This document shows positions 1 to 20,015 of a stretch of 64,000 nt of DNA, piece by piece. The notes under the pieces were generated by a model. The model worked only from the letters and a program-made list of their open reading frames with translations, was not told the DNA's origin and made no database searches. The stretch is from Verrucomicrobiota bacterium. GTDB taxonomy: Bacteria > Verrucomicrobiota > Verrucomicrobiia > Opitutales > Opitutaceae. Location: assembly GCA_030601755.1 (NCBI GenBank), contig JAUWBF010000011.1, forward strand, positions 1 through 64,000, in the 5' to 3' direction. How positions within the stretch are numbered: the stretch's first letter is position 1; each line of letters starts with the position of its first letter. The translations under genes were made by a program, and so were the position numbers.

Positions 1-25
1 CTCGGTGCGGTCGCACCGAGGACCA
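1..25. other. Palindrome at the leader-distal array edge
   Basis: Bases 1-20 are a perfect inverted repeat, CTCGGTGCG and CGCACCGAG around a GT loop, followed by five bases and then the first visible CRISPR repeat. It could be the 3' part of a further spacer or the flank just beyond the array end. The palindrome resembles the short intergenic palindromes elsewhere in the window, which favours the flank. Confidence 0.4.
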
Positions 26-2014
26 GCTTCAACGGGGCCGCGCTCCGAAGAGCGCGGAGTCGCGAGGGTGGGGATGACACCGGCCACGAGTTGATGGCTT
101 CAACGGGGCCGCGCTCCGAAGAGCGCGGAGTCCTACGCGCCCGTCGCCGACATCGCCACCGCCTACGCGCTTCAACGGGGCCGCGCTCCGAAGAGCGCGG
201 AGTCCATCGGCGCGCCCGACTACGGCACCAAGACCGACGGGCTTCAACGGGGCCGCGCTCCGAAGAGCGCGGAGTCATCGGCTACACCGGCGACTTCAAG
301 GCGCTGGCCAAGGCTTCAACGGGGCCGCGCTCCGAAGAGCGCGGAGTCGCGGCGATTGTTTGGGTGCATGGTTTCGCGCCGGATGCTTCAACGGGGCCGC
401 GCTCCGAAGAGCGCGGAGTCGTCCAAGAGCAACGCACCGGGGCCGGGTAATTGTTGGCTTCAACGGGGCCGCGCTCCGAAGAGCGCGGAGTCGACCTATC
501 GCGCCGACGGCCGCTTGTGGTCCAAGGGAGCTTCAACGGGGCCGCGCTCCGAAGAGCGCGGAGTCGCGGAAAGTCCCGCAGTGGCCGGAGTATTCGACAA
601 GCTTCAACGGGGCCGCGCTCCGAAGAGCGCGGAGTCCTTCGCAGTCGCTCAAGGCGACGATCGCCTAGCCAAGCTTCAACGGGGCCGCGCTCCGAAGAGC
701 GCGGAGTCGCGCGGCCATTTCACCGCCGCGACCGATGCCGCCAAGCTTCAACGGGGCCGCGCTCCGAAGAGCGCGGAGTCCGCCGCTGATGACCTCGACC
801 AAGCCAGGGCCGACCTCGCTTCAACGGGGCCGCGCTCCGAAGAGCGCGGAGTCCGGTCTGTTTCCACACGCGGACTGGTGAAAATCTAGCTTCAACGGGG
901 CCGCGCTCCGAAGAGCGCGGAGTCCGCAAAATAGTGCGGACTGCGCGCATGGGGGCAATGCTTCAACGGGGCCGCGCTCCGAAGAGCGCGGAGTCGGCCG
1001 GCGCGGGGGGAACCTGTGGTTGTGGGTGCTCGCTTCAACGGGGCCGCGCTCCGAAGAGCGCGGAGTCCGGCATCGATGCAGCTCTGCGGGTCGACGCGGG
1101 CGTGCTTCAACGGGGCCGCGCTCCGAAGAGCGCGGAGTCCGACGAGCTGCTGGCCCGGCGCACCCTGTCGGTCGGGCTTCAACGGGGCCGCGCTCCGAAG
1201 AGCGCGGAGTCAGCCTGACCGACCGGCTCGCCGCATCAAAGCTCAACCCCGCTTCAACGGGGCCGCGCTCCGAAGAGCGCGGAGTCACCACGGTAAAAAA
1301 CCAGTCGGCGTTCTCGCTCTTCTTCACGCTTCAACGGGGCCGCGCTCCGAAGAGCGCGGAGTCAGATTGTCGGCCAGCTCGCGCATCGCCACCGCGTCAA
1401 GCTTCAACGGGGCCGCGCTCCGAAGAGCGCGGAGTCGCGGGTGGCGGTGGATCCGGCGGCGCCGGCATCCTGGCTTCAACGGGGCCGCGCTCCGAAGAGC
1501 GCGGAGTCGGGTGCGGGCACGCCCATGCGTTCGCAGAATTTGAGGCTTCAACGGGGCCGCGCTCCGAAGAGCGCGGAGTCGCGCACTTCTGCGACGCGGT
1601 GGTTGCGCGAGAACTTGCTTCAACGGGGCCGCGCTCCGAAGAGCGCGGAGTCCATGCCACCGACCACCCTTCAACCGCCCATCCCACTGGCTTCAACGGG
1701 GCCGCGCTCCGAAGAGCGCGGAGTCAAGTGGACCGCAACACGCTGCCGAACACGCGACACGCTTCAACGGGGCCGCGCTCCGAAGAGCGCGGAGTCGACT
1801 CCGACACTCACTGCTGGCTCGCGGTGGGCTGGTGCTTCAACGGGGCCGCGCTCCGAAGAGCGCGGAGTCGCAGCATCACCCGCGCCGACATGCGCGGCCT
1901 CCTCTTCGCTTCAACGGGGCCGCGCTCCGAAGAGCGCGGAGTCCCCTTATCCAAGGCCGCCTGTCGGATCGTCTCAGCGCTTCAACGGGGCCGCGCTCCG
2001 AAGAGCGCGGAGTC
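26..2014 (-). CRISPR. CRISPR array, 28 repeats, type I-G
   Basis: There are 28 apparently identical 36-bp repeats and 27 unique spacers, most 35-38 bp with outliers of 39 bp (1212-1250) and 41 bp (1287-1327). On the plus strand each repeat begins GCTTCAACGGGG and ends GCGGAGTC. It holds an 8-bp stem, CCGCGCTC with GAGCGCGG, and a 4-base loop. Read on the minus strand the repeat ends in GTTGAAGC, the usual 3' handle form, and cas2 and the leader lie on the high-coordinate side. Transcription and spacer acquisition should therefore run from 2014 towards 26. In that orientation the loop is UUCG closed by C-G, a very stable tetraloop. The absence of degenerate repeats suggests a recently active array. 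It may continue left of the window. Confidence 0.98.
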
Positions 2015-2216: not shown

Positions 2217-2507
2217 TTAAACCACATAGCAGGGCTGGTCGAAATGGTGGTAGGCCTGGCCCAGCGCCGTGATCGTCCGGTCGCCGCGACTCTCGGCCGG
2301 ACCCAGCCCGATGAAGAGCACCTGGTCCTTTTCATGATGGATCACTTCCTTGAGCAACCCCTCCAACTCCACGCGTTCCTGCGCGGTCAGGTCGCATTCA
2401 AAAACCGAATACTGCAGGTGGTTCCCATAGTCCTGGCAGATGCGAAACACCTTCCGCAACCGCTTCGGGTCGGCGATGTCGTAACTGACGATGTAGGTGT
2501 GACGCAT
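2217..2507 (-). CDS. cas2: CRISPR-associated endonuclease Cas2
   Basis: The 96-residue product has the Cas2 ferredoxin-like fold signature: an N-terminal beta strand ending in an acidic residue (TYIVSYDIADPKRLRKV, D10) and the later strand that follows a YSVFECDL segment. Cas2 is the structural core of the Cas1-Cas2 integrase that inserts new spacers at the leader end of the array. The length is normal for the family. It is the last cas gene before the leader and lies 152 bp after cas4-cas1, a larger gap than elsewhere in the operon, so it might have its own promoter. The ATG at 2507 has no obvious Shine-Dalgarno site, like its neighbours. Confidence 0.95.
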   Translation of the reverse strand: MRHTYIVSYDIADPKRLRKVFRICQDYGNHLQYSVFECDLTAQERVELEGLLKEVIHHEKDQVLFIGLGPAESRGDRTITALGQAYHHFDQPCYVV

Positions 2508-4706: not shown

Positions 4707-5849
4707 TCAGGGCAGCGTGCGGCGCAGGACCTCCACGGCGTGGCCGTGGGGAATCTTTTCCTGCTCAAGCAGGATGTGGTTCGTGTGCAGGCGTTGGTAG
4801 ACGAGTCGTTCGGGTTCGGTGAGATTAGCGGTTTCCTCGTAGGCGGCGGCTGGCGAAGGCGTTTGGTAGTCGGCGTAAGCCGTCAGGGTTGGTTCATCCA
4901 TGAGCACGCTTTCGGCTTGCGGAAACATGCGGCGGAGGCGGGACAGGATGTGAAAGCCGTGGACGTCGAGGTCGCCCCAGTAGACGAGCCGGCAGCGATG
5001 CAGCCACGGGACGGTCGCCAACAAGGCCGTGGCGTTGCCCGCGCCCCAGATCGCGATGGTTCGCGACAAGGTCGGGAGGGTGAGGAAGGTGAGTTTGTTT
5101 TCGACGATCAGCACGCTCTGGTCCGTCCACCCGAGGGCGCGAAAGCGGGACAGTGGCGTGGCGAGATCATCCACGGGCACGCCGAGGGTGGGGCCGAGGG
5201 AAAGGTCGAGCAGGCGCAGGCGAACGAGGGATTCTTCGCTTCGCAGGCCGAAGCGCGCCTCGAAGGTCTCGGTCGCGGGATCGATGGCGGATTCGGGCAG
5301 CAGCGCGTCGAGCAGGCTGCGGAGGATGGGGCGATGGTTCTCGATAAACTTGGTGTCCACGGCGACCGGCAGCTGGCGGGCGTAGAGGGCGGGGCGGGGA
5401 TTCGCCAGCAGGTAGCCGCAAACGAGCAGCAGGCGCGGCCAGGCATCGGCGTAGTCGGTGAGCCGGGGCGCGTGCGAGGCGAGCCAGCCTGCAAGCTGCG
5501 GGAAACGTTCTAGGGTTAGGCGAAGGTTTTCCCGGAAGCGGCGGACTTCGGCGGCCTTGCCGAGCATGCGCAGGTAGTCGGCTTCCGTGGCGAAACTGAC
5601 GCAGGCCGGCAGGCGTTGGCGTCCCCAGCGGCGGGTGTTTCTCTCCTCCCACGCGATGGTGTAGCCGAACTCAGTTTCGGCTTGGGCGAGCGCGGTGATC
5701 TCGCGTTGGAGCACGCTCCAGTCGGCGGTGGGCGACGGCTGGCCGAAGCGGATGGGCATCGGGAACAGGTCTTCGCCGGCGGCGATGGCGCGGAGGACGC
5801 CGGGGTATTTGCGCAGCCCGAGCGTCTGGATGTCGGCGGGACTAAGCAT
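4707..5849 (-). CDS. jetD: Wadjet nuclease subunit JetD
   Basis: The 380-residue protein matches the JetD layout: an N-terminal DUF3322 region and a C-terminal DUF2220 Toprim domain related to topoisomerase VI subunit A. The Toprim acidic residues are visible in VLIVENKLTF and in YWGDLDVHGF (D-x-D). In characterised Wadjet systems JetD cleaves circular plasmid DNA after extrusion by the JetABC SMC complex. Its ATG (5849) overlaps the jetC stop by 8 bp, so the two are probably translationally coupled. It is the last jet gene, 25 bp before cas4-cas1, in the same apparent transcript. Confidence 0.92.
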   Translation of the reverse strand: MLSPADIQTLGLRKYPGVLRAIAAGEDLFPMPIRFGQPSPTADWSVLQREITALAQAETEFGYTIAWEERNTRRWGRQRLPACVSFATEADYLRMLGKAAEVRRFRENLRLTLERFPQLAGWLASHAPRLTDYADAWPRLLLVCGYLLANPRPALYARQLPVAVDTKFIENHRPILRSLLDALLPESAIDPATETFEARFGLRSEESLVRLRLLDLSLGPTLGVPVDDLATPLSRFRALGWTDQSVLIVENKLTFLTLPTLSRTIAIWGAGNATALLATVPWLHRCRLVYWGDLDVHGFHILSRLRRMFPQAESVLMDEPTLTAYADYQTPSPAAAYEETANLTEPERLVYQRLHTNHILLEQEKIPHGHAVEVLRRTLP

Positions 5850-8800
5850 CGGGAGCGGTGGCCGGCGGCGTGGTCACCTGGGTGGCGGGCGACTGTGCGC
5901 GGGCGGCCTCGTAGTCGGCGCGGGAGGCGCGGCTGAGGCGGGAGTTGTTGAGGTCCGGATTGGTGGCGAGGTGGAAGCTGTCCACGTAGTCCTCGACGAT
6001 GCGGCTCTTGGCGTCGAAGGGGCTGACGACGACGAGTTGCAGACCGAGTTTTTGAAACAGATCGAGGGCGCGTCGCGAGTTGGTCTCGTCGGTGCGGGCG
6101 AAGGCCTCGTCGATGACGACGAGGCGAAAGGTGTCGGCCTCGCCGGCGGCGTCGAGCAGGCCGTATTGGGCGGCGATGGCGGACGCGAGGATGGTGAACG
6201 CGAGTCGCGCCTTTTGTCCGCCCGACTTGCCGGCGGAGCCGGAGTAGTAGTTGGCCTCGGTGCCGTCGGCGTCGTGGAGTTCGCGCACGGCGTAGTCGAA
6301 CCAGTTGCGGGCGTCGGTGACGCGCTTGGTCCAGACGTCGTCGCTCTCGAATTTCGCGATGAGCTCCCGGATGCGTCCGAAGACGCGGAGGCGATCCTCG
6401 GGCGAGGGATTGAGGCCGCCGGAAAAGCAGTCGCGAAGTTCGGCGCGGAAGCGGCGGACATCGTCGGTGCGGGTGGCCTGGGCGACGATCTGGACGTGGG
6501 TGGATTCGGTGAAGGCGATGGAGCGGAGCGCGCCGTTGACGGTGGCGATGCGGTCTTTGATGTCCTGCTCGTGGCCCTCCAGCTTGCTATTGAACATGGC
6601 CAGGTCGCCAACGAGGTTGGTGCCGAGGTAGGCTTCGAAGCGCTGACGGTGCTGCTGGAGTTCCTGCTGCTCGATTCGGTCGCGCAGGGCGACAAAATCG
6701 TCGGCGAAACGCGGCTCGGCCCGCAGGTCCGCGGTGTAGCCGGGGTGGTCGCGCAGGAAGTGCGTCATCGGCTCGATCATGGCCTGCTCGGCGTCGCGCA
6801 TGATCTTTTCCTGCTGGGAGATTTTTGAACGCAGCCGGCCTTGGACCTGTGAGCGAGTGTGCTCGACATTGGCCAAGGTGAGCTCGGCCACGGCCTGCAA
6901 TTCGGCGAACGCGGGCTCGTGCGGGGCGGGGTCGAAGTCGGCATGCTCGCCGAGGGTTTCGTTGAGGTCGGCGAGCAGGTCGTCGAGGGCGCGCAGGCTT
7001 TTTTTCAGATCGCCGATGCGTTGCTGCACGCGGTTGTTTTCGTCGGCGTTGACGTCGAGGCGCTGTTTGACGGCGTCGAGTTGCTCGCGCAGAGCTCGGA
7101 GCGACTCGGAGCTGGCCTCGAGGTCCTGCTTTTCCTTTTGCAGACGCGACATCTCGGTCTGCACGGAGCGGGTGTCGATGTCGGCGAAGGATTCGCACGC
7201 GAGCAGCGTGCCGATGGCGGCGAGGCGGGTGGCGAGGGCCTTGAGCTGGCGGTCGAGGTCGGCGACCTGTTTCGCGGCTTGCTCGGCGCGGGAGTGGGCG
7301 CGGTTGAACTCGGTGGTGAGCGCCTCGATCTTTTCCTCGATGGACCAGCCGAGCACGTAGCCGGAGGCGTCGTTGACGGCGCGGCGGTCGTCCTTCACGT
7401 GGCGCGAGGAGCCTTCGCGGACGAGGCCTTCGCGCGTGATGCCGTAGTCGACTTCGCGCAGGTGCTCGATGGAATCGCAGCAGTGGTGATGAAAACGCCG
7501 GACGACCTCGGCCTGCAGCCATGCGGCCAGGGGATTTTCTTCGCGGAAACGCAGCCGGGCGGGCACGCGGGCCGGATCGTGCAACACATCGGAACGCGGG
7601 GCGGGCACGGAGATCGGCACGCGGTGGAAGGTGAAGCGCAGACCTTGGTTGCGGTGGTCCACCAGGCGTCGGCCGTTGATGAAGTCGGCGACGGCGAGGT
7701 AGTGGCGCTCGGGCACGAGCAGCGACACGCCGAGCGAGTGCAGGAGGCGCTCGATGGCGCCGGTCCATTCGCGGTGCTCGGTGCGCACCTCGATGAGCTC
7801 GCCGGCGAAAGGCAGGTCGTCGGCGGGTATGCCGGTCGCGGCGACGAGCGCGGAGCGAATGGCCAGAAACTCGCGGGGAATGAGCACGCGGTGATCGCGC
7901 AACGTCTGGAGTTCGTCGGCGAGGCGACCGCGCAGGTCGAGCGCCTGTAGTTGTTCCATGGATGCGCGCGTGCGGGCTTCGTCCTTCTCCTTGCGCTCGA
8001 TCTCGGTCGGACCGCGTTCGGCGCGCATCTGGGTTTGCAGGCGCGTGAACTGCGCGGCGTCCTCGACGGGTTGCGAGAGGCCGAGGGTTTTGAGCTGGGC
8101 CTCGAACAGGCGGAGTTCTTTCGCGCGGGATCTGTGACGTTCCTCCAGAGTCTTCAGCTCTTGGTCGATGCGGCGGATGCTCTGCTCGGTGGTGTCGGCG
8201 GCGATCTCCTGAAGCTTGCGATCATGCTCCTCCTGGTCGCGTTGGCGCTGGACCTTGAGTTCCTCGGCGCGGGCCTCGGCGACGGTGCGCTGTTCGTCGA
8301 GGCGGGCGGCCTCGGCGTCGGCGAGCGCGCGGTGGCGGTGGGCGTAGTAGATCGGCGATAGGTCGAGCACGGCCTGGTGCGCGTCGCGCAGGGCCGCGGC
8401 GTCGCGGGTGTTCTGGCGATGGGCGACGATGGGGGCGAGGGCCGCGAGCTGACGCTCGGCGCGGTCGATGGCCTTCCAGCTCGCGTCGAGCTCGTGGAAA
8501 TGGGGGCGCAGGGTTTTGTGGATGAAGTCGAGGATGTCCGAGCCTTCCAGCATGTGGCGGCGGACGAAGGGATTGATTTCGGAAACCTCCTTCACGCCGA
8601 TCGCTTGGTTGAAGACTTCGAGGGCGGCTTCGCCGGGCAGGCCGAGCCGACCGCGGAAGACCTCGGCGTAGGCGCTGAAACTGTCGAACACGTCGAAGCC
8701 GCGCTGGCGGAGGGTGCGCTTGAGATCGCGGCTTTGGCCGAGGTCGGCGAGGTCTTCGCGGATGGTGTGGTCGCGGCGGGCGACGGCGTAGGTCTCGTGG

Positions 8801-9246
8801 ATCTTGTCGTTCAGTTCCCAGAGGATCTGCACGAGAGTGAAGGCCTCGCCGGCGTGCTGGTTGGCAAAGACGCCGAGGAGGATGGAAAACTCTCCGGGGG
8901 CGCGCAGGTTTTGCGGGATGGCCGCGGCGGAATCCTCCTGGCTGGCGGTGGCCCAGGTGCCGCGCACGTAGCTGCGGCGGGTGCGGTCGCGGCGCTTCTG
9001 TTCGCCGGAGGCGTCGTTGTAATTGAGCAGGCGGGGCGGGACGAGCAGCGTGCGCAGGGCGTCCACGGCGGTGGATTTGCCGCTGCCGTTTTCGCCGACG
9101 AGAAGCGTCCAGCGTTCGTCGGGGAAGAGGCTGGAGACCTTGCCGTGGAAGGTGCCCCAGTTGTGCATTTCGAGGCGGCGCAGGCGCCAGCCGGGGAGCG
9201 GACGGGAGCCGTCGGCGAGGGGGAAATCAATTTCCAGGTTCGGCAT
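5842..9246 (-). CDS. jetC: Wadjet SMC-like ATPase JetC
   Basis: The 1134-residue protein is an SMC/MukB-like ATPase. Walker A is GENGSGKST at 51-59. There are two long coiled-coil stretches (about 270-430 and 640-830, rich in E, R, Q and L) around a central hinge-like part, then an ABC signature (KSGGQKARLAF) and Walker B (LVVIDEAFARTD) near the C-terminus. With JetA and JetB it forms the DNA loop-extruding motor that recognises small circular DNA for JetD. Its start overlaps jetB by 20 bp and its end overlaps jetD by 8 bp. No catalytic motif appears lost. Confidence 0.95.
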   Translation of the reverse strand: MPNLEIDFPLADGSRPLPGWRLRRLEMHNWGTFHGKVSSLFPDERWTLLVGENGSGKSTAVDALRTLLVPPRLLNYNDASGEQKRRDRTRRSYVRGTWATASQEDSAAAIPQNLRAPGEFSILLGVFANQHAGEAFTLVQILWELNDKIHETYAVARRDHTIREDLADLGQSRDLKRTLRQRGFDVFDSFSAYAEVFRGRLGLPGEAALEVFNQAIGVKEVSEINPFVRRHMLEGSDILDFIHKTLRPHFHELDASWKAIDRAERQLAALAPIVAHRQNTRDAAALRDAHQAVLDLSPIYYAHRHRALADAEAARLDEQRTVAEARAEELKVQRQRDQEEHDRKLQEIAADTTEQSIRRIDQELKTLEERHRSRAKELRLFEAQLKTLGLSQPVEDAAQFTRLQTQMRAERGPTEIERKEKDEARTRASMEQLQALDLRGRLADELQTLRDHRVLIPREFLAIRSALVAATGIPADDLPFAGELIEVRTEHREWTGAIERLLHSLGVSLLVPERHYLAVADFINGRRLVDHRNQGLRFTFHRVPISVPAPRSDVLHDPARVPARLRFREENPLAAWLQAEVVRRFHHHCCDSIEHLREVDYGITREGLVREGSSRHVKDDRRAVNDASGYVLGWSIEEKIEALTTEFNRAHSRAEQAAKQVADLDRQLKALATRLAAIGTLLACESFADIDTRSVQTEMSRLQKEKQDLEASSESLRALREQLDAVKQRLDVNADENNRVQQRIGDLKKSLRALDDLLADLNETLGEHADFDPAPHEPAFAELQAVAELTLANVEHTRSQVQGRLRSKISQQEKIMRDAEQAMIEPMTHFLRDHPGYTADLRAEPRFADDFVALRDRIEQQELQQHRQRFEAYLGTNLVGDLAMFNSKLEGHEQDIKDRIATVNGALRSIAFTESTHVQIVAQATRTDDVRRFRAELRDCFSGGLNPSPEDRLRVFGRIRELIAKFESDDVWTKRVTDARNWFDYAVRELHDADGTEANYYSGSAGKSGGQKARLAFTILASAIAAQYGLLDAAGEADTFRLVVIDEAFARTDETNSRRALDLFQKLGLQLVVVSPFDAKSRIVEDYVDSFHLATNPDLNNSRLSRASRADYEAARAQSPATQVTTPPATAPDA

Positions 9247-9802
9247 GATCGAGGAGGCGTTGCTTGATGGTTTCGAGTTCGGAGGGGGCGATGCGGGCCT
9301 TGACGATGCGCATGATTTCGAAGGCGTCCTGACCGCCTGCGGTGAGCGGGCGGATGAAGCCGAGGTCGTCGAGGCTCTTGATGGCGGCGTCGATGAGTTT
9401 GAAATCGCGGACCTGGTTGGTGGTCTCCGGGAAGAAGTCGGCCACGAGGTCGCGGAGCTGCTCCCGGGTCTTGATCAGGCGCGGGCTGTCGTCGGCGGAC
9501 GAGTCGAAGCGCAGGAACTCCTCGCGCAGGACGACGAGCAGGAGCGTGGCGGGGTAGCTGAGCGGTCGCCGCTGGACGAGGCGCGGCACACGTTCCTCGC
9601 CCTCGGGTTCGAGTTGGCGGATGAACGCGTAGCCCTCGCCTTCGTCGAGCACCAGTTCCTGACCGATGTCGCGAAAGTAGCGTTGGACCTCGTCGACATG
9701 ACCGCGGAGGGTGAGCCAGTCCTCGGTGTCCTCGCGATAGACGGGTTCGCGAAAGAGGCGGGCTTTGACGAAGGCGACGGGCGGGAAGTCGGTGGGATTC
9801 AT
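9227..9802 (-). CDS. jetB: Wadjet kleisin-associated subunit JetB (DUF4194)
   Basis: The 191-residue protein fits JetB/DUF4194, a MukE-like winged-helix subunit: about 190 residues, acidic, with the segment LSYPATLLLVVLREEF and a C-terminal LIDAAIKSLDDLGFIRPL. It bridges the JetA kleisin and the JetC ATPase in the Wadjet complex. The ATG at 9802 shares an ATGA overlap with the jetA stop, the typical sign of translational coupling. A much longer frame-compatible extension upstream was rejected because it runs through the jetA coding region. Confidence 0.92.
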   Translation of the reverse strand: MNPTDFPPVAFVKARLFREPVYREDTEDWLTLRGHVDEVQRYFRDIGQELVLDEGEGYAFIRQLEPEGEERVPRLVQRRPLSYPATLLLVVLREEFLRFDSSADDSPRLIKTREQLRDLVADFFPETTNQVRDFKLIDAAIKSLDDLGFIRPLTAGGQDAFEIMRIVKARIAPSELETIKQRLLDHAEPGN

Positions 9803-11241
9803 GAGCGGGAAAAAAGGAGCATCGGCACGCGCCAGCGCTGCGGGTTTTCGGGCGGACCCCAGACGACGGTCTCCTCGTCTGTATCCGAAATATAATGACG
9901 ACGTTCGCCGGCGGCGACGATGAGGTAGCCGATGAGTTCCATCACGCCCTCGCTGAGCGGGAAGCGGGCGAGCACGTCGGAGAGCATGATCGGACTGCGG
10001 TCGGCGAGGCAGGCGTCCACCTGCTGGCGAAGTTCGGCGAGGCGGATTTCCGGCAGGTTGTGGAAGCGTTGCATGTCGGCCAGCGAGAGCCGGCCGGTCT
10101 CCTCCTCGATGGGACCGCGGGCGGAGGCGGACTCCGGTGCCTGCCAAAACGGTCGGCTGAGACCGGCGAACAATTGCGGGAAGGTCGGCACCGCGAAAAA
10201 ATCGGATTCGGTCGGCGGCCGTTCGCGCACGGCGAGGGCGGCCTGGCAGATTTCCTGCAAAAGCTCGCCGACGCGGCGGCGCTCGGCGAGGTGGGTGGTG
10301 TCGAGCACGCGGCGCAGGTTGGTGGACAGGCGCTGATGCGAGGCGACGACGCACTCGCCCTCCTGCAGCAGGTGGCGGAGGAAGTGACGCAGCAGGGCGT
10401 TGTCGCGGTGGGCGGGATCGAGCGCGGCGAGAGCGCGGACCTGCTCGAGTTGTTCGTGGAAACGGCGCTGCTTGTCGGACGAGAGCAGGAGTTCCCAGAA
10501 CGCGAAAAAGCTCTGGCCCTGTTCCGACTCGCGCAGGGCGTCGTGCGAGTCGAGCAGGTGGGCGACGATGGCGCCCTTGGTCACGCCGGGGCGGGCGTGG
10601 TGCTCGGCGATCTCGTGGGCGATGCGCTTGAAGTTGTGCTCGACCTGTCGGAAGTCGGCGAGGAGTTCGCGGGCCGTCGCGAGGATGTGGGCGTAGCGTT
10701 CGTTGATCTGGACGGGCGTGAACGCCTCGGCGCGACCGGTGGCCTTGATGCGGTCGATCTCGGCGTGGATGGCCTCGGCTTCGGCGAGCAGTTGTTCGAT
10801 GCGCCGCGTGGGATCGTCGGAGGAGTATTTGAGGATTTCATCGAGCCCCGAGAAGACGCTCTCCAAACGGGACTCGGTGCCCACGAACTTGGTCTGACGC
10901 ATCGACTCCAACCACAGCAGCGCCTTCTCGGAGCCGGTGGTGAGTTCGTAGAGTGGCTCGTCGGTGTCGGGTCCATAGTAGCGCCGGAGAAAACCGTGCT
11001 CGGGCGCGCACCAGTCGGCGAGGTAGTCGGCGGCGGTTTTCGGGTAGGCGAGGGGGGCGGATTCGCGATGATCGTCGAGCTCGACGTCGAGCAACGCCTG
11101 CACCTGGCCCTCGGGCAGGGAGACGCGGTGGTCTTTTTTGAAGACGCGCCAGAGGAAGCCGAGGATGAGCGGGGCGTTGTTGGCGCGCAGGAGCCGGACG
11201 GCGGGGTGGTCGAGCAAGAGTTGAAGCTCGTGGTGGTCCAT
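9799..11241 (-). CDS. jetA: Wadjet kleisin subunit JetA (DUF3375)
   Basis: The 480-residue protein matches DUF3375/JetA, the MukF-like kleisin of Wadjet. The N-terminus (DHHELQLLLDHPAVRLLRAN, LILGFLWRVFK) and the helical middle with ELTTGSEKALLWLESM are typical of the family. It links the JetC heads and organises the motor. It is the first jet gene; upstream by 27 bp is only a short gene remnant (11269-11550), then an S23 gene and a SIMPL gene, so the promoter is probably that of the cas operon or hidden in the 11550-12175 region. Confidence 0.93.
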   Translation of the reverse strand: MDHHELQLLLDHPAVRLLRANNAPLILGFLWRVFKKDHRVSLPEGQVQALLDVELDDHRESAPLAYPKTAADYLADWCAPEHGFLRRYYGPDTDEPLYELTTGSEKALLWLESMRQTKFVGTESRLESVFSGLDEILKYSSDDPTRRIEQLLAEAEAIHAEIDRIKATGRAEAFTPVQINERYAHILATARELLADFRQVEHNFKRIAHEIAEHHARPGVTKGAIVAHLLDSHDALRESEQGQSFFAFWELLLSSDKQRRFHEQLEQVRALAALDPAHRDNALLRHFLRHLLQEGECVVASHQRLSTNLRRVLDTTHLAERRRVGELLQEICQAALAVRERPPTESDFFAVPTFPQLFAGLSRPFWQAPESASARGPIEEETGRLSLADMQRFHNLPEIRLAELRQQVDACLADRSPIMLSDVLARFPLSEGVMELIGYLIVAAGERRHYISDTDEETVVWGPPENPQRWRVPMLLFSRS

Positions 11242-12901: not shown

Positions 12902-14497
12902 TCAGGTGACGGCAGCAAACAGACCGGTGCCGGAGAACTTGCCGCCGCCGATGCAAAGCGGGCCAGACATGGGAAGGGGCTGGCCATGCTCATCGCGAAA
13001 CTGGATGCGGACGTGCAGTTTTCGGTAGCGGCGGTGTTGATCGCCGGTCATGTAGTGCGAGGCTATGTCCGTGCCGGGCAGATAACCGGAGCCGCGCCAC
13101 TCAATGGCGGCGTGATGGGCGATAGAATCGGAATAGCCGGCTTGGCGGAGGGCTTTGCGCAGGAGTTGGTCGATGCGTTGGTCGAGTTTGGCGACGAGCG
13201 CGTTTTTTTCTTCGGCCGTGAGGCCAGAGTTTTCGCGGAGGCGTTGGCGGAGTTTTCGCGGGTCGTCGTAACCGGGCAGGATGACCGGGGTGACAGTCGC
13301 CCAAGTGGAAGACGTGGCCAGATAGTTCTCTTTGGTGAGCTTATCGGAATCGGGGAGGCGCGACAGCAGGGCCGCGGGTTTACCGTCTTTCTCGTCGATC
13401 AACTCCAGGCCGTCCAACCGTTGGGCAAGGCGTTGGAATTCGTCGCGCGGCATCGGACCGTGTGTCGTGACCAGGACGCGGCGAATCGCACCGACGACGT
13501 GCGCCCTGCCTTCGCCTCGGGGTTCGATGCTGGGGAGCGGCAGGAACAGGAGCCGGGTGGGCGATGGATTTGTGGAGGCTTCCTCGGTGTGTCCGTGGAC
13601 AAGACGCGCGATTTGCGCGTCGTTCCAGCCGAGTGAACGGGCGATGTCCGCACCGCCCGCGACATGGCGCAGCATGGCGGCGACGTGCAGGCCGCGACGG
13701 ACCGGGTCGAAGGCGCGGAAGCCGGAATCGTCCAACTGACGCAGCGCGAAAATGGCGAAGGGGGGGCGGATGGGGTCGGACGCGCGGCGGTAGGTAAGGA
13801 CGCGGAAGCGTTCAAGCGGCGGCACCGGGCGGAAGAACTGGCTGCCATCGGGTGCCGTGGGAAGGCGCGCGAGAAACGCTTGATGACGATGCTCCAAGGC
13901 GGCGAGCGTGCCGCTCACGGGAACGCGAAGCGGGGCAATGCCGCCCTCAGCCGGAAACCATTTTTCGGTGTCACTGCCGGGGGCGGTTGCGGGAGGTGCC
14001 TCGATCAGGTCGGCGTCGGCCACGACTAGGTTGACGCCCCAGCCGAAAGCGGAAATGGCTCGGGCGAGTTGACGGATTTGGTCGGGAAATTCCGGCGGTG
14101 GTTCGTCGGTGAGTTCCCACAAGTAGGCGACAATGGCATTTTCGGGGAGACGGGTGGGACGAATTTCTTTGGCGGCCCGATAGCTGGCTATGTCGTTGTC
14201 GCGTCCGCTGGACCACGATTTTGCGACAAGATCTCCAACGTTGTTTGGGACAAATGTCTTGAAGCCGTAACGCGGTTGGATGGCGGTGGGTTTGCTGGCG
14301 ACGACGGTGGGCGGCGGCAGTTTTTCGAGACGCTCCAGCGCGGGCACGTAGGCGCCCATGCCGAGGCGAGCGGCGGAGTTGGTGAGTGTTTGAAACAGGC
14401 GCAGCGGCGAGGGTGGCCATTCGGGTTCGCCGCCGTCGCCACGTCCGTCAAACTCGTCCAGCAGGAAGCGGACGGAGATTTGTAGGAGGGTGGGCAT
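12902..14497 (-). CDS. csb2: Type I-G Cascade subunit Csb2 (Cas5-Cas6 fusion, GSU0054 family)
   Basis: The 531-residue protein belongs to the GSU0054/Csb2 family, a Cas5-Cas6 fusion of type I-G/I-U. The N-terminal RAMP strand (LLQISVRFLLDEFDG) with EWPPSPLRLFQTL is characteristic. The C-terminus has a glycine-rich loop (LCIGGGKFSGTGLFA) typical of Cas6-like RAMPs, and there is a histidine pair in SIAHHAAIEWRGSG. It should cleave the pre-crRNA at the repeat hairpin, hold the crRNA and cap the 5' end of the Cascade backbone. It starts 24 bp after csb1, in the effector part of the operon. Confidence 0.92.
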   Translation of the reverse strand: MPTLLQISVRFLLDEFDGRGDGGEPEWPPSPLRLFQTLTNSAARLGMGAYVPALERLEKLPPPTVVASKPTAIQPRYGFKTFVPNNVGDLVAKSWSSGRDNDIASYRAAKEIRPTRLPENAIVAYLWELTDEPPPEFPDQIRQLARAISAFGWGVNLVVADADLIEAPPATAPGSDTEKWFPAEGGIAPLRVPVSGTLAALEHRHQAFLARLPTAPDGSQFFRPVPPLERFRVLTYRRASDPIRPPFAIFALRQLDDSGFRAFDPVRRGLHVAAMLRHVAGGADIARSLGWNDAQIARLVHGHTEEASTNPSPTRLLFLPLPSIEPRGEGRAHVVGAIRRVLVTTHGPMPRDEFQRLAQRLDGLELIDEKDGKPAALLSRLPDSDKLTKENYLATSSTWATVTPVILPGYDDPRKLRQRLRENSGLTAEEKNALVAKLDQRIDQLLRKALRQAGYSDSIAHHAAIEWRGSGYLPGTDIASHYMTGDQHRRYRKLHVRIQFRDEHGQPLPMSGPLCIGGGKFSGTGLFAAVT

Positions 14498-15709: not shown

Positions 15710-18700
15710 TCAGAGCGGCTTGGCCGGGAGGAAGGCCTTGTGCTTGCGCTGACTGGTTCGATACCAGCTCTCGAAGCGGAATGATGGCTGCGGGTGCGCG
15801 TCCGTGAGCCCATTGATGGCGGCGGCGAGCAACGCGATGGGGACGGGTGCTTGCCAGAGATGGTAGTCGAAGAGGCGGTCGCCGGACGGCTCGGGAATGG
15901 CTCGTTGGAGACCGACAAGCGTGAGGAACTCAGCGGCGGGGGCGGCGAGGGTTTCTAGTTTGAGGTCGTTGGTGGAAAAACCGACATCGCGAGCATCGGA
16001 GTTGGGGCCGCGGTTGGCGTCGAAGTAGAAGGGCTCGACTTTTTTGGCCGGGTTTTCGGGCGCGTAAGCGATCCTCAGGCTGTAGAGTATTTTATCTCCG
16101 TCCTCGGGCAGAATAGCCTTTTGCATGGCGCGGGCGATGCGGGGGGCTTCCATCGTTCCTGCCCAGACTTTGAGGGAAGAGGTGGTGGGCAGGGAGGTTT
16201 TCCACCAATCAACACGGAGATCGAAAGGGGTGTTGATCGCGATTGGCGAAGCGGTGGCGTCGTTTGGATCGAGGGCGGTGATTCCGGCGGCGGTGATTTT
16301 CTTGAGGAGTTCGCTGAGCGGCGGGGTGTTCGCGAGGTGAAAGCGGCACCCAGTGTCGGTTTGCTCGAACCATGTGACGGCGTCAGGGAATAGGGTTGGA
16401 CGGGTGGCGAGTTCGAAGAGGCCGCAGCAGGCGAAGTAGTGGCCGGGGTTGGCGGGGTTGACCGCGAGCGTTGCGGTTGGCGTGGGAGTAGGCGTGTTGG
16501 CGACTTGTGTAGCGGGAACCGAAGCCGGGGGGTGATCCTTGAGTGAGGATGGCGCGGAGGGAGCGACGATGCCGGCGCTGGCGGCGTAGTCGGCGGCACG
16601 GAGGAGTGATTCCAACCAGGCTAGGCCCCAACGTCCGAAGCGCTTTTGAAGGCTGGCGAAGCGGCGCGGAGTGTCGGCAGCGACGACGGGAGCCGCACTA
16701 TTTCCGGAATAGTCGAAGGCTTCCTCGACGGGGAAGTATGGGCGGGCACGCCCGTGGTGTGCGGCGACGAGGTGCAAGGTAATCTCTCGTTCGGTTTCGG
16801 TGAGGCTATTAAAATCCGGGTCGTGCTCCGCATCGAGGAGCGAACCGAACTCGTGTCGGTAATATTCGGCGACGTTGCGTGAACGCATCTTCCCGCCTGA
16901 CTTCGCGAAGATGGTGGCCGGATTGGCGGGGTCGTAGGCGAGGTTGCCGAGGTTGCGTTGCCAGGCGCGGCGGTTCTTCCCGAGGTCGTGCAGGCGTGCG
17001 GCGACAACAAGACAGCGCCCCAAATCGGGTTCGCCGGCTGCGGGGGCTTCAGGGAGAAGCTTGGCGGCGAGCGATGCGGCGTTGGCCGTGACGGCGTCGG
17101 TGTGTTTATCGAGGGTTTCGGCGTCGGAGGCGGCGACCTTGCGCTTGGCGGTGGGGTCTTCCAAGGGAGCGAACCAGAGGAGGTAATTTGGTTCGTCGGC
17201 GTCTTCGTCGGAGATGATGCGCGAAAAATCGGCGGAGTTGTCGGGCGTGTTGCTTTCGCGACGCGCGATGTCGGAGCAATCGACGGCGGGGGTTTTGGTT
17301 GAAATCGAAAACATCCCCATCGGCTCGAGGCCGCCGAGACTGGCGGGGAGGAGAAGGGTGGAGCCGGTGATGCGCTCTTTCTCGCGCTTGAGTTTAGCCT
17401 CTTCTTCGTAGGAGCGGTCTTTCTTGGGCTTCGCCGACAGGGCAAACGGAGCGAGTGGAAGTTTTTCCACGGCTCCAAATTCGTCGATCAGCCAAGCGTC
17501 GGGGAGTGGGTTTTCCGACTGAAGGCGTGCGGCTACAAGATCCCCCAGCGTGTCGAAGATACGATCGGTGGTGTCGCGCAGGAGTTCGCGGGGACGCAGT
17601 GGGAAGGTTTCGAGGAAGCTTTCGAGGGCGTGGTCGGGGAGGTGGATGAAGTCGAGGTCGTCGCGCCAAGCGAGATGTGTCTCAGGCGGTTGCCACTCGG
17701 ATTCGCCGTGAAGGTAGGGGGCGACGGGGGGACGGGCGGCGATGGGTTTGCGAATGGATGTGAGCGCCCAAGCGTCGAATTGAACATCCCTGGCCTCGCG
17801 AGGAGTCGGCGGCGGTGAAAATGCGGCGGCGCGAGCGGCGGTCGGGAGCGTGTCGAGCGCGGCGGGGCTGGCGGAGCCATCGAGTTGTCGGAGCAGTGTG
17901 AGCGTGCGTTCGCGGGCGGCTTCGATGGGTTTGGCGGAGTCGAACTTGGTTTCGTGAACCACGGTGACTTCGCTGTCGTCGCAGAGGCCGAAGCGGTTCA
18001 CGCGGCCGAAGCGCTGGGCCATGCTTTCGTAAGTGGAGAGATCGCACACCAAATCGTCGGCGGAGAGATTGACGCCGACTTCGCCGGCGCTGGTGGCCAC
18101 GAGGAATACCGTTCCGGTGGGCGGTTCGATGTGCTTGGCGCGGTCTTTTTTGGGAAGGAAGCGTTGGAACACTGGGTTCTCGTAAGCCAGCGCGTCGCGT
18201 TCCTTGCCGCGCATGGTCCCGGTGAGCGCGGCAACCATGCCCTTGTGCGCTCCTTTGTTCAGATATTCGAAGACCTTGAGGGCAGTGGCGACGGAGCGGG
18301 TGAAAACGAGGACGGCGCGACCCGCGGGCTTGGCCTTCGCGAGGGGCGCGAGTTTTTCGTCCAACGTGTCGGCCTCATCGAGCGGGATCAGCGAGAGCCG
18401 TTTGGCGGCATGGATACGTTTTTGGACAGTGTCGTTTTCTTGGTCGGCGTCGGTGAGTGTGAACGGCGCGGAGTCGTTTGCGTTATCGGCGCGGTTAGTC
18501 GCGGTGAGGGCGATGACATGCAGCTTTCGTAGTTCAGCTTCCGCTTTCTGCGTCGCGACGATGGTTTCCAGCAGGGACTGAAAGCAGGGCTCAAGGTGAG
18601 CCTCGTCGTGAACGAGAAGGACGTCTTGTGCGAGGAAGCCGGCGTGAAGCGGACGGGTTTTAAACCCGCGAGTATAGCGACTGAAGAGGAGACCGCTGCC

Positions 18701-19159
18701 GATCATGTCCACGGTGCCGACGACGACGGCGGGGCGGGCGGGGTCGGCGCACCATTCGCCGTTGTCGGCGAACTCGCCGCGTAGTGTGCTTATGGCGAGG
18801 GGCGGTGCGTCGGGCGCGGGCAGCGGAAGCGCGCAGAGTTTTGTGAGTGTTTCTCGGATTTCGGAGAGTTCGGGTTTCCGCTTCAGCGCTTCGCGGAGGC
18901 GCTCGACCTCGGCGGTGGTCTGGTCAACCACTGTGCGGCGATTCACGACGTAAACGAGGCGGCGTGGTGTGGTGTCGGGCTTGGTCGCCAAAGCGCAGAG
19001 CCAGATTGCGATGACCGATGTTTTGCCGAGCCCGGTGGGGATGGCGGCGGAGGCGGGGATGTCGCCGGCGATGAATTTGGCGAAGAGTGAGGCCTGCCAC
19101 GGAAAAGGGCGCGAATCGCTCAGGGCCTCGAAGGTTTTGGGGAAGTCGTGCGGCTGCAT
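15710..19159 (-). CDS. cas3-csb3: Cas3 helicase-nuclease fused to Csb3 (Cas8-like)
   Basis: One 1149-residue frame combines three parts. The helicase (about 1-600) has Walker A (PTGLGKT, 41-47), DEAH at 185-188 and the later motif VGVNLSADDLVCDLSTYESM with QRFGRVNR. The HD nuclease (about 718-865) lies C-terminal to the helicase, as in I-U Cas3, with RLHDLGK near 722-728 and HLVAAHHG near 797-804. After a Pro/Thr-rich linker (about 866-899), residues 900-1149 match the GSU0052/Csb3 (Cas8c-like) opening NPGHYFACCGLFELATRP. In Geobacter cas3 and csb3 are separate adjacent genes; here no stop, restart or Met separates them. The fusion would tether the degrading nuclease to the Cascade large subunit. 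It starts 12 bp after the cas3 remnant. Confidence 0.9.
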   Translation of the reverse strand: MQPHDFPKTFEALSDSRPFPWQASLFAKFIAGDIPASAAIPTGLGKTSVIAIWLCALATKPDTTPRRLVYVVNRRTVVDQTTAEVERLREALKRKPELSEIRETLTKLCALPLPAPDAPPLAISTLRGEFADNGEWCADPARPAVVVGTVDMIGSGLLFSRYTRGFKTRPLHAGFLAQDVLLVHDEAHLEPCFQSLLETIVATQKAEAELRKLHVIALTATNRADNANDSAPFTLTDADQENDTVQKRIHAAKRLSLIPLDEADTLDEKLAPLAKAKPAGRAVLVFTRSVATALKVFEYLNKGAHKGMVAALTGTMRGKERDALAYENPVFQRFLPKKDRAKHIEPPTGTVFLVATSAGEVGVNLSADDLVCDLSTYESMAQRFGRVNRFGLCDDSEVTVVHETKFDSAKPIEAARERTLTLLRQLDGSASPAALDTLPTAARAAAFSPPPTPREARDVQFDAWALTSIRKPIAARPPVAPYLHGESEWQPPETHLAWRDDLDFIHLPDHALESFLETFPLRPRELLRDTTDRIFDTLGDLVAARLQSENPLPDAWLIDEFGAVEKLPLAPFALSAKPKKDRSYEEEAKLKREKERITGSTLLLPASLGGLEPMGMFSISTKTPAVDCSDIARRESNTPDNSADFSRIISDEDADEPNYLLWFAPLEDPTAKRKVAASDAETLDKHTDAVTANAASLAAKLLPEAPAAGEPDLGRCLVVAARLHDLGKNRRAWQRNLGNLAYDPANPATIFAKSGGKMRSRNVAEYYRHEFGSLLDAEHDPDFNSLTETEREITLHLVAAHHGRARPYFPVEEAFDYSGNSAAPVVAADTPRRFASLQKRFGRWGLAWLESLLRAADYAASAGIVAPSAPSSLKDHPPASVPATQVANTPTPTPTATLAVNPANPGHYFACCGLFELATRPTLFPDAVTWFEQTDTGCRFHLANTPPLSELLKKITAAGITALDPNDATASPIAINTPFDLRVDWWKTSLPTTSSLKVWAGTMEAPRIARAMQKAILPEDGDKILYSLRIAYAPENPAKKVEPFYFDANRGPNSDARDVGFSTNDLKLETLAAPAAEFLTLVGLQRAIPEPSGDRLFDYHLWQAPVPIALLAAAINGLTDAHPQPSFRFESWYRTSQRKHKAFLPAKPL

Positions 19160-19171
19160 GGGGGGAATGAC

Positions 19172-19321
19172 TCAGGCGGCGGTTTTGCCCAGGCCGGTGG
19201 GGATGTTGATGAGCTGGGATTCGCAGGGGCGGCCGGCGGTGTCGCCGGCGAGGCGGCGTTGGTAGGCGTAGGGGGCGTTGCCGGTGGCGTTGCGGAAGAC
19301 GTCGTCGAAGGTGGCGGGCAT
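19172..19321 (-). pseudogene. Truncated cas3 head (49 codons) at the start of the cas operon
   Basis: The frame begins MPATFDDVFRNATG, continues APYAYQRRLAGDTAG and ends LINIPTGLGKTAA followed directly by TGA. This is the N-terminus of a type I-U/G Cas3 helicase up to and including Walker A, and it differs in sequence from the head of the full cas3 that starts 12 bp downstream (PFPWQASLF, AAIPTGLGKTS). It is the first coding sequence after the predicted cas promoter. Either it is the scar of a second, lost cas3, or it is kept as a leader peptide whose translation is coupled to cas3-csb3. No continuation of this second helicase is found downstream. Confidence 0.75.
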
Positions 19322-19378: not shown

Positions 19379-19407
19379 ATTTTAATTCCTCTCCAAACCA
19401 CTCCTAT
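19379..19407 (-). promoter_or_regulatory. Putative cas operon promoter
   Basis: On the minus strand TAAAAT (19379-19384) matches five of six bases of a sigma-70 -10 box. The -35 window 17 bp upstream (19402-19407) has a weak match. The area is the most AT-rich stretch in the first 20 kb. It lies about 55 bp upstream of the first start codon (19321). No Shine-Dalgarno site precedes 19321 or 19159. Confidence 0.4.
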
Positions 19408-19416
19408 ATCACTGAA
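19396..19416 (-). promoter_or_regulatory. Partial protospacer with TTC PAM in the cas promoter
   Basis: Read on the minus strand, 19416-19414 is TTC and 19413-19396 is AGTGATATAGGAGTGGTT. This matches the first 18 bases of the pseudo-spacer at 19446-19463 at 15 positions. The mismatches fall at 6, 8 and 12; 6 and 12 are among the positions flipped out and unpaired in type I Cascade complexes. TTC fits the TTN PAM reported for the Geobacter I-U system. The site covers the predicted -35 region of the cas promoter, so Cascade binding here should repress it. Confidence 0.55.
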
Positions 19417-19431
19417 GTATTCAGTCTGGTA

Positions 19432-19519
19432 GGCCCCGTTGAAGCAGTGAGAGAGGCGTGGTTGTCATTGGCCGAAAGGTCATTTCTCCGCGTGCTTCGG
19501 CGCGCGGCTCCTTTTGTCG
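19432..19519 (+). ncRNA. crRNA-like regulatory RNA (degenerate repeat-spacer-repeat)
   Basis: On the plus strand 19432-19445 (GGCCCCGTTGAAGC) equals the last 14 bases of the CRISPR repeat, including the 8-base 5' handle. A 38-bp pseudo-spacer follows (19446-19483), then a degenerate repeat (19484-19519) identical to the array repeat at about 22 of its first 28 positions. In its hairpin, CCGCGTGC pairs with GCGCGCGG. One T-A pair of the original stem has become G-C by two changes and a C-G has become a T-G wobble, while the UUCG loop is kept. Pairing thus survives although sequence drifts, which argues for a selected, Csb2-processed RNA. A possible -10 for it (TATATC, 19405-19410) overlaps its own target. 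It resembles CreR/CreA RNAs described for other type I systems; that assignment is an inference. Confidence 0.6.
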
Positions 19520-19532
19520 CGGTTCTTGCCAA

Positions 19533-19549
19533 CGCGGCCCCGTTGAAGC
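19533..19549 (+). repeat. Third CRISPR-repeat fragment
   Basis: CGCGGCCCCGTTGAAGC is identical to the last 17 bases of the array repeat (canonical orientation). It stands 13 bp before the antitoxin start codon and is not followed by a further repeat. It may be the 3' half of the second pseudo-repeat displaced by a small insertion, or a relic of an old array in this position. Confidence 0.7.
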
Positions 19550-19561
19550 AGGGTTTGGGGC

Positions 19562-19792
19562 ATGAGCACGCTTGTGGAGATCGAAGAAGCCATCGCGAAA
19601 CTGCCGGAGGCGGAGTTTCGGATGTTGCTGGCGCGTTTGAAGGAGCGCGATGCGGAGGCGTGGGATCGGCAGATCGAGGCCGCGGTGAAAGACGGTCGCA
19701 TGGACGCCCTTTATGCCCGGCTGGCCGGCGGAGATACGGAAGAGTCGAAGGCACCGCTCGAAGAAGTCCTCGACGACCGCAAGCTTTCGTAA
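19562..19792 (+). CDS. Antitoxin-like protein of a RelE-type pair
   Basis: The 76-residue acidic protein (TLVEIEEAIAKLPEAEFRML, then DRQIEAAVKDGRMDALYA) is mostly helical and resembles short antitoxins encoded before RelE/ParE-like toxins. The ATG at 19562 is directly downstream of the crRNA-like element, and the 3' end overlaps the toxin frame. The acidic antitoxin would bind and neutralise the toxin and probably repress the operon. Assignment rests mainly on the neighbour. Confidence 0.7.
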   Translation: MSTLVEIEEAIAKLPEAEFRMLLARLKERDAEAWDRQIEAAVKDGRMDALYARLAGGDTEESKAPLEEVLDDRKLS

Positions 19793-20015
19793 GGCGCTGG
19801 CCGATCTGCCGCCGGAGATGCGGTTGCTGGCCCGCAAGAATTTCAAGCTGTGGTTGCGTGATCCCCGGCATCCTTCGTTGCATTTCAAAAAGGTCGGCGG
19901 TTATTGGTCCGCGCGAGTGGGGGAGGATTATCGGGCCTTGGCGATCAGCCGGCCGGATGGCGTGGAGTGGTTTTGGATCGGCACTCATGCGCAATACGAC
20001 CGATTGATCGGCTAG
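19713..20015 (+). CDS. RelE/ParE-like toxin
   Basis: The core LPPEMRLLARKNFKLWLRDPRHPSLHFKKVGG with WSARVGEDYRALA and FWIGTHAQYDRLIG is a RelE/ParE-superfamily toxin, probably an mRNA interferase. The full frame from the ATG at 19713 gives 100 residues. The conserved domain begins around SFRKALADLPP (codon 25), so part of the N-terminus may be untranslated or a non-ATG start may be used; no better ATG exists. It overlaps the antitoxin gene by about 80 bp if the 19713 start is right. Confidence 0.78.
   Translation: MPGWPAEIRKSRRHRSKKSSTTASFRKALADLPPEMRLLARKNFKLWLRDPRHPSLHFKKVGGYWSARVGEDYRALAISRPDGVEWFWIGTHAQYDRLIG

Follow-up and report, generated by a model that had tools for sequence, protein, structure and literature searches.

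A predicted CreR-type guide RNA for autorepression of a type I-G cas operon, with locally matched counterparts in 14 other loci

The stretch of DNA analysed here (the window; 64,000 nucleotides) carries, at 19410-19519 on the plus strand, a mini-CRISPR that very likely encodes a CreR-type guide with which the type I-G Cascade would repress its own cas operon. The anatomy of this element, its match to the cas upstream region, the PAM beside the match, covariation in 14 other I-G loci and mismatches with a period of six were established in this analysis. Because 14 other bacteria from several phyla carry such a device with a different guide that matches locally, type I-G Cascade very probably lowers its own production.

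The cas genes of the window were assigned to type I-G by matches to TIGR02621 (624 bits), TIGR02570, TIGR02165 and TIGR04106, all of which scored above the NCBIfam cut-off. The repeat of the accompanying array (GACTCCGCGCTCTTCGGAGCGCGGCCCCGTTGAAGC) was also found on contig C133. The system consists of the following features.

1-2014, minus strand: CRISPR array with 28 repeat ends, running off the contig; source of the cognate repeat
12902-14497, minus strand: csb2, a cas5-cas6 fusion and the crRNA-processing subunit (TIGR02165; function from PMC9638904)
14522-15658, minus strand: csb1 / cas7g (TIGR02570)
15710-19159, minus strand: cas3g with a C-terminal Cas8g2 match, 1149 aa (TIGR02621, TIGR04106)
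19175-19321, minus strand: mini-ORF, a truncated Cas3g N-terminus ending in IPTGLGKTAA and a stop; first ORF downstream of the target

The mini-ORF had been omitted from the initial annotation, and the same arrangement was present in L064 at 571-745 (plus strand). In both loci the mini-ORF belongs to a different Cas3g lineage, ends right after Walker A (IPTGLGKTA) and lies directly upstream of the full cas3; it may be what remains of a gene since replaced, or else a leader ORF that has been conserved. A partial cas3 duplication of a similar kind was observed in L060. The interval that separates the CRISPR array from the cas genes holds a Wadjet-like set (DUF3375, DUF4194/MksE-like and SMC-like; 5842-11241, minus strand).

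The element is a unit of repeat-like, spacer and repeat-like parts that lies outside the array and adjoins the cas operon, as CreR loci do. Its parts and its presumed target are listed below.

19396-19413, minus strand: target AGTGATATAGGAGTGGTT, matching the pseudo-spacer at 15/18; presumed cas promoter
19414-19416, minus strand: PAM TTC, 5' of the target, in keeping with the TTN PAM described for type I-G
19410-19445, plus strand: first pseudo-repeat (psiR1), with the stem part replaced and the tag intact
19446-19483, plus strand: pseudo-spacer of 38 nt, matching the cas upstream region with its first 18 nt (19446-19463)
19484-19519, plus strand: second pseudo-repeat (psiR2), degenerate

In a mature crRNA, the upstream repeat contributes its 8-nt tag and the downstream repeat its hairpin. 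In psiR1, the last 14 nt of the array repeat are intact (19432-19445) and the 8-nt crRNA tag (GTTGAAGC) is matched at 8/8, the stem part having been replaced (11/28 identity to the array repeat); a small additional hairpin (ACTGAA-GTA-TTCAGT) is contained in psiR1. Comparison of psiR2 with the array repeat showed identity of 22/28 in the stem part, with retention of the hairpin CCGCGTGC-TTCG-GCGCGCGG, and of 2/8 in the tag, which is lost; a terminator scan showed a T-rich, terminator-like tail in its place. The predicted fold of psiR2 was -16.1 kcal/mol (z = -1.7). The repeat end at 19432-19445, the 38-bp pseudo-spacer and the degenerate repeat at 19484-19519 are all as the initial annotation had placed them. 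The extensive loss of the psiR1 stem in the window counts against the CreR reading, since it bears on how the 5' end of the RNA is made. An Rfam search with the element gave no match, and a DNA search of 252 genomes of its family and of plasmids gave no informative relative, the latter result also weighing against that reading. Searching 373 genomes for the pattern tag-N30-45-CCGC returned so many arrays and chance hits that the result was discarded.

Positions 1-18 of the pseudo-spacer matched the reverse complement of 19396-19413 at 15/18, and 74 nt separate the target from the first cas-side ORF, which lies downstream of it. The match, its TTC flank and the mismatches at positions 6 and 12 had been recognised before and were reproduced here, the third mismatch being at position 8. 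No better match than this one occurred on either strand within 700 bp, whether a PAM was demanded or not, and among TTN-flanked matches it also ranked first over 19 kb (14/15 scored positions; runner-up, 10/15). The earlier chance estimate of 3e-7 per alignment is unfair as an end figure because spacer and region had been picked by eye; its conclusion that the match is unlikely by chance holds, with shuffling of the spacer giving p = 5e-5 (the floor of 20,000 shuffles) with the TTN requirement and p = 1.3e-3 without it. Like CreR RNAs, the element thereby shows partial complementarity to the cas upstream region beside the PAM of its subtype. A scan for consensus sigma-70 promoters upstream of the cas operon found none, so that the target is called a promoter from its position; this result, together with the overlap of predicted promoters and targets in only some of the loci compared, counts against the CreR reading.

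To place the element in a wider context, 80 type I-G cas3 loci were examined for repeat ends outside arrays. Many solitary repeat ends shared the arrangement seen in the window, upstream of cas3 and on the other strand. For each of them the best TTN-flanked local match was determined with positions 6, 12 and 18 ignored. Among 58 solitary ends (80 loci and the window), p was 0.02 or lower in 10 and 0.139 or higher in 48, with none between. The ten were those of the window, L065, L119, L090, L112, L114, L080, L138, L076 and L139; L104, which has a slightly deviating motif, was the eleventh locus. The match in L065, a locus of Verrucomicrobium sp. BvORR106, amounts to 17/18. A second batch of about two dozen non-duplicate ends yielded three new cases (L057, L154 and L169), each with p of 0.0015 or lower. 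L116, a closer Cas3 relative (58%), was without a match within 700 bp, and a wider search located a 16/18 TTG-flanked match 853 bp away, beside the start of cas3, with mismatches solely at positions 6 and 12. In total, 15 loci including the window had a match with a TTN flank upstream of the cas genes, and the carriers included Verrucomicrobiota, Planctomycetota, Acidobacteria, SAR202 and an unclassified MAG; the loci from MAGs may contain assembly errors. Guides and targets were unrelated across loci and agreed inside each locus, that is, they covaried. Independent drift of spacer and promoter in homologous loci had been named in the initial annotation as the outcome that would speak against its reading, and the opposite was found in the 14 other I-G loci.

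Three of the 15 loci (L080, L076 and L139) were individually weak (p 0.002-0.011), and in L064, whose Cas3 is the closest relative (74%), the corresponding upstream position is taken up by another gene; both findings count against the CreR reading. The solitary repeat ends of L109, L143 and L099 had no target within 6 kb. The case is built on analogous, independently matched elements and not on orthologues, the window element showing no sequence conservation in the 252 family genomes searched. In L028, the GTTGAA words that occur upstream of cas3 proved not to be repeat ends and were set aside, and a repeat-end match on contig C140, lying amid unrelated sequence, was taken as chance.

The pairing signature was assessed in six loci with a match of at least 14/18 (window, L065, L090, L112, L114 and L119), which were found without a PAM or position rule; an 18/18 match in L112 was excluded from this set, since it proved to be a duplicate of the repeat-spacer rather than a target. 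A TTN flank accompanied 6/6 of these matches (background, 6.4%). Mismatches occupied 11/18 cells at positions 6, 12 and 18 versus 4/90 elsewhere (Fisher p = 1e-7), and the same test without the window gave 9/15 versus 3/75 (p = 1e-6). The Cascade pairing geometry expected of a CreR, with every sixth base unpaired, was thus seen in six loci chosen independently of it. In leave-one-out counts over all 15 loci, which are partly biased by selection, positions 1, 2, 4, 5, 7 and 13 matched in 15/15, and positions 6, 12 and 18 in 5, 3 and 5 of 15. A Fisher test over the 15 loci is partly circular because positions 6, 12 and 18 were ignored in choosing some of them, and we therefore relied on the six-locus set. 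Matching ended after about position 17, as positions 19-36 matched at 31% (14 loci). In type I-G, as reported in PMC9638904, the PAM is TTN, the handle is 8 nt long, Csb2 binds the hairpin at the 3' end and the sixth base is flipped; the positions at which mismatches are concentrated would be the bases flipped out by the I-G Cascade. The local TTN-flanked matches in 14 other loci, with mismatches concentrated at 6, 12 and 18, lend support to the original interpretation of the element.

The repeat halves retained in other loci were compared with those in the window. The same split between tag and stem was found in L065 (psiR1 tag 7/8, stem 7/28; psiR2 stem 19/28, tag 4/8) and in L090 (psiR1 tag 8/8, stem 12/28; psiR2 stem 22/28, tag 4/8). 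The psiR1 stem was better retained in L080 and L138 and was also present in L114, L119, L154 and L169; L112 was an exception in that the tag was retained by the second repeat instead. The parts that would enter the RNA, the psiR1 tag and the psiR2 stem, are thus generally kept. In L112, a repeat end and pseudo-spacer occur tandemly twice, 74 nt apart, at about 2250-2356 (minus strand), and the first 18 spacer bases of the two copies are identical, as if the guide had been duplicated.

On the side of the mini-CRISPR facing away from the cas genes, the window contains three features.

19534-19549, plus strand: further repeat end with an intact tag (GCGGCCCCGTTGAAGC), corresponding to the last 16 nt of the array repeat
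19562-19792, plus strand: antitoxin-like ORF, 76 aa
to 20015, plus strand: ParE-like toxin (PF24732)

Both the further repeat end, which sits 12 bp before the ATG of the antitoxin-like ORF, and the toxin-antitoxin-like pair directly after it (19562-20015) had been omitted from the initial annotation. The sequence following this repeat end had no target above chance within 19 kb. Among the neighbouring ORFs examined in other loci, no toxin-antitoxin pair was recognised. Small sigma-factor-like or HNH-like ORFs before cas3 formed the first cas-side ORF past the target in L090, L104, L139 and L114; those of L090 and L104 matched Sigma70_r2 below the cut-off, and that of L114 was HNH-like by eye. 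Across the divergent region, L065 (8917-9423, minus strand), L080 (8768-9271, minus strand) and L028 (about 5130-5640) all encode a conserved protein of roughly 168 aa that looks kinase-like by eye and has no Pfam match in its first 70 aa.

These neighbours make toxin control the main rival explanation, because CreTA and CrePA couple Cascade to toxins. The main task of the guide might then be Cascade repression of the pair at 19562-20015, which would leave the cell dependent on CRISPR, with cas repression secondary or a consequence of the shared region. The pair follows the element directly and in the same direction, a repeat end precedes its antitoxin gene closely, Cascade-repressed toxins are already known, and the target lies inside a shared divergent region, where Cascade could affect the mini-CRISPR and the pair too. 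However, the target is found at the cas-proximal end of the mini-CRISPR, whereas the pair lies beyond its other end; the repeat end beside the pair is without a target, and no such pair was recognised among the ORFs examined next to the other elements. On this evidence we consider it quite unlikely that toxin control is the guide's main task.

The element could also be a remnant of a decaying array, that is, repeats left over near cas genes with a chance match or a functionless self-derived spacer, and the presence of three incomplete repeat ends in 140 bp, on MAG contigs that are fragmentary, would suit such an origin. However, decay would be unlikely to spare the tag in one repeat but the stem in the other, and matched pairs of spacer and target with a TTN flank and mismatches at 6, 12 and 18 occur in 15 unrelated loci; the covariation already largely refutes decay as the explanation, which we regard as very improbable. 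In the window, target and pseudo-spacer lie on different strands and so make up an imperfect inverted repeat around the palindrome ACTGAAGTATTCAGT; the two copies might act as a protein operator or as an RNA hairpin (attenuator) independently of Cascade. Yet spacer and target are direct copies in 8 loci (L065, L090, L112, L119, L080, L076, L057 and L154) and inverted copies in 7 (window, L114, L138, L139, L104, L169 and L116), the tag, the TTN flank and the mismatch period remaining constant, so that an operator or attenuator is extremely improbable.

Under the preferred reading, CreR-type autorepression, transcription of the RNA would lead away from the cas operon, and trimming would leave the 5' tag of psiR1, the pseudo-spacer and the psiR2 hairpin, the last being bound by Csb2. 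The RNA-loaded type I-G Cascade would find the TTC-flanked site at 19396-19413 and pair with it over about 17 nt only, which would be enough for binding and for blocking transcription of the cas operon; the short match is presumably insufficient for Cas3 cutting. Cascade would in this way hold down its own synthesis, and relief would come when array crRNAs or an anti-CRISPR occupy Cascade, as a review states for CreR repression (PMC12737573). Transcription, processing, loading, repression, the lack of cleavage and de-repression are steps that we infer. A single guide might even have three outputs, with Cascade at the shared divergent region repressing the operon, transcription of the guide and the toxin-antitoxin-like pair; we think this unlikely. 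If it were true, loss of Cascade would restore Cas synthesis and raise the toxin, merging an autorepressor with an addiction module.

Type I-G has been called the least well understood subtype (PMC9638904). The present results would extend RNA-guided cas autoregulation to it, in several phyla and beyond one locus. The natural pairs of guide and target form an evolutionary readout of I-G pairing (a TTN PAM, about 17 constrained bases, and positions 6, 12 and 18 free); they fit the cryo-EM geometry and suggest the extent of pairing that is tolerated without self-cleavage. They also provide ready sites for probing how I-G repression is separated from interference and whether anti-CRISPRs trigger cas induction, and the guides are natural compact repression guides.

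Shmakov et al. 2023 (NAR) reportedly described standalone repeat-like mini-arrays, mostly of type I, whose spacers show partial complementarity to cas promoters; the window element resembles these crRNA-like elements in being a mini-array with a spacer of this kind, directed at the presumed cas promoter. With Racr, phage-encoded solitary repeats that inhibit Cascade and occur in viral genomes unassociated with cas genes (PMC10651486), it shares a solitary repeat outside an array; unlike Racr, it adjoins the host's own cas genes and has a matched local target. As in CreA of CreTA (PMC8501985, PMC9458426) and in CrePA (PMC12737573), degenerate psiR1 and psiR2 flank a pseudo-spacer that would direct Cascade to a nearby promoter, and a toxin-antitoxin-like pair, here a protein one, adjoins the element. 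In contrast to those systems, the target is on the cas side instead of upstream of the toxin, and the other loci examined had no recognised toxin neighbour. No report of a CreR in type I-G was found in the literature searched, the coverage of which did not extend to the likeliest sources, Liu et al. 2023 and Shmakov et al. 2023. CreR RNAs, which are described in PMC12737573, regulate cas genes and are listed for types I-B, I-E and V-A in PMC13131331 (2026). The element is like them in its mini-CRISPR by the cas genes, its degenerate repeats and its limited PAM-adjacent complementarity to the cas upstream region. It differs in its subtype, for which PMC9638904 describes an effector that carries Csb2 on the 3' hairpin, lacks Cas5 at the 5' handle and is encoded without a cas11 gene, and in that repression is here predicted from sequence. 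In all likelihood, then, the element is a cas autorepressor of a known kind, CreR, in subtype I-G.
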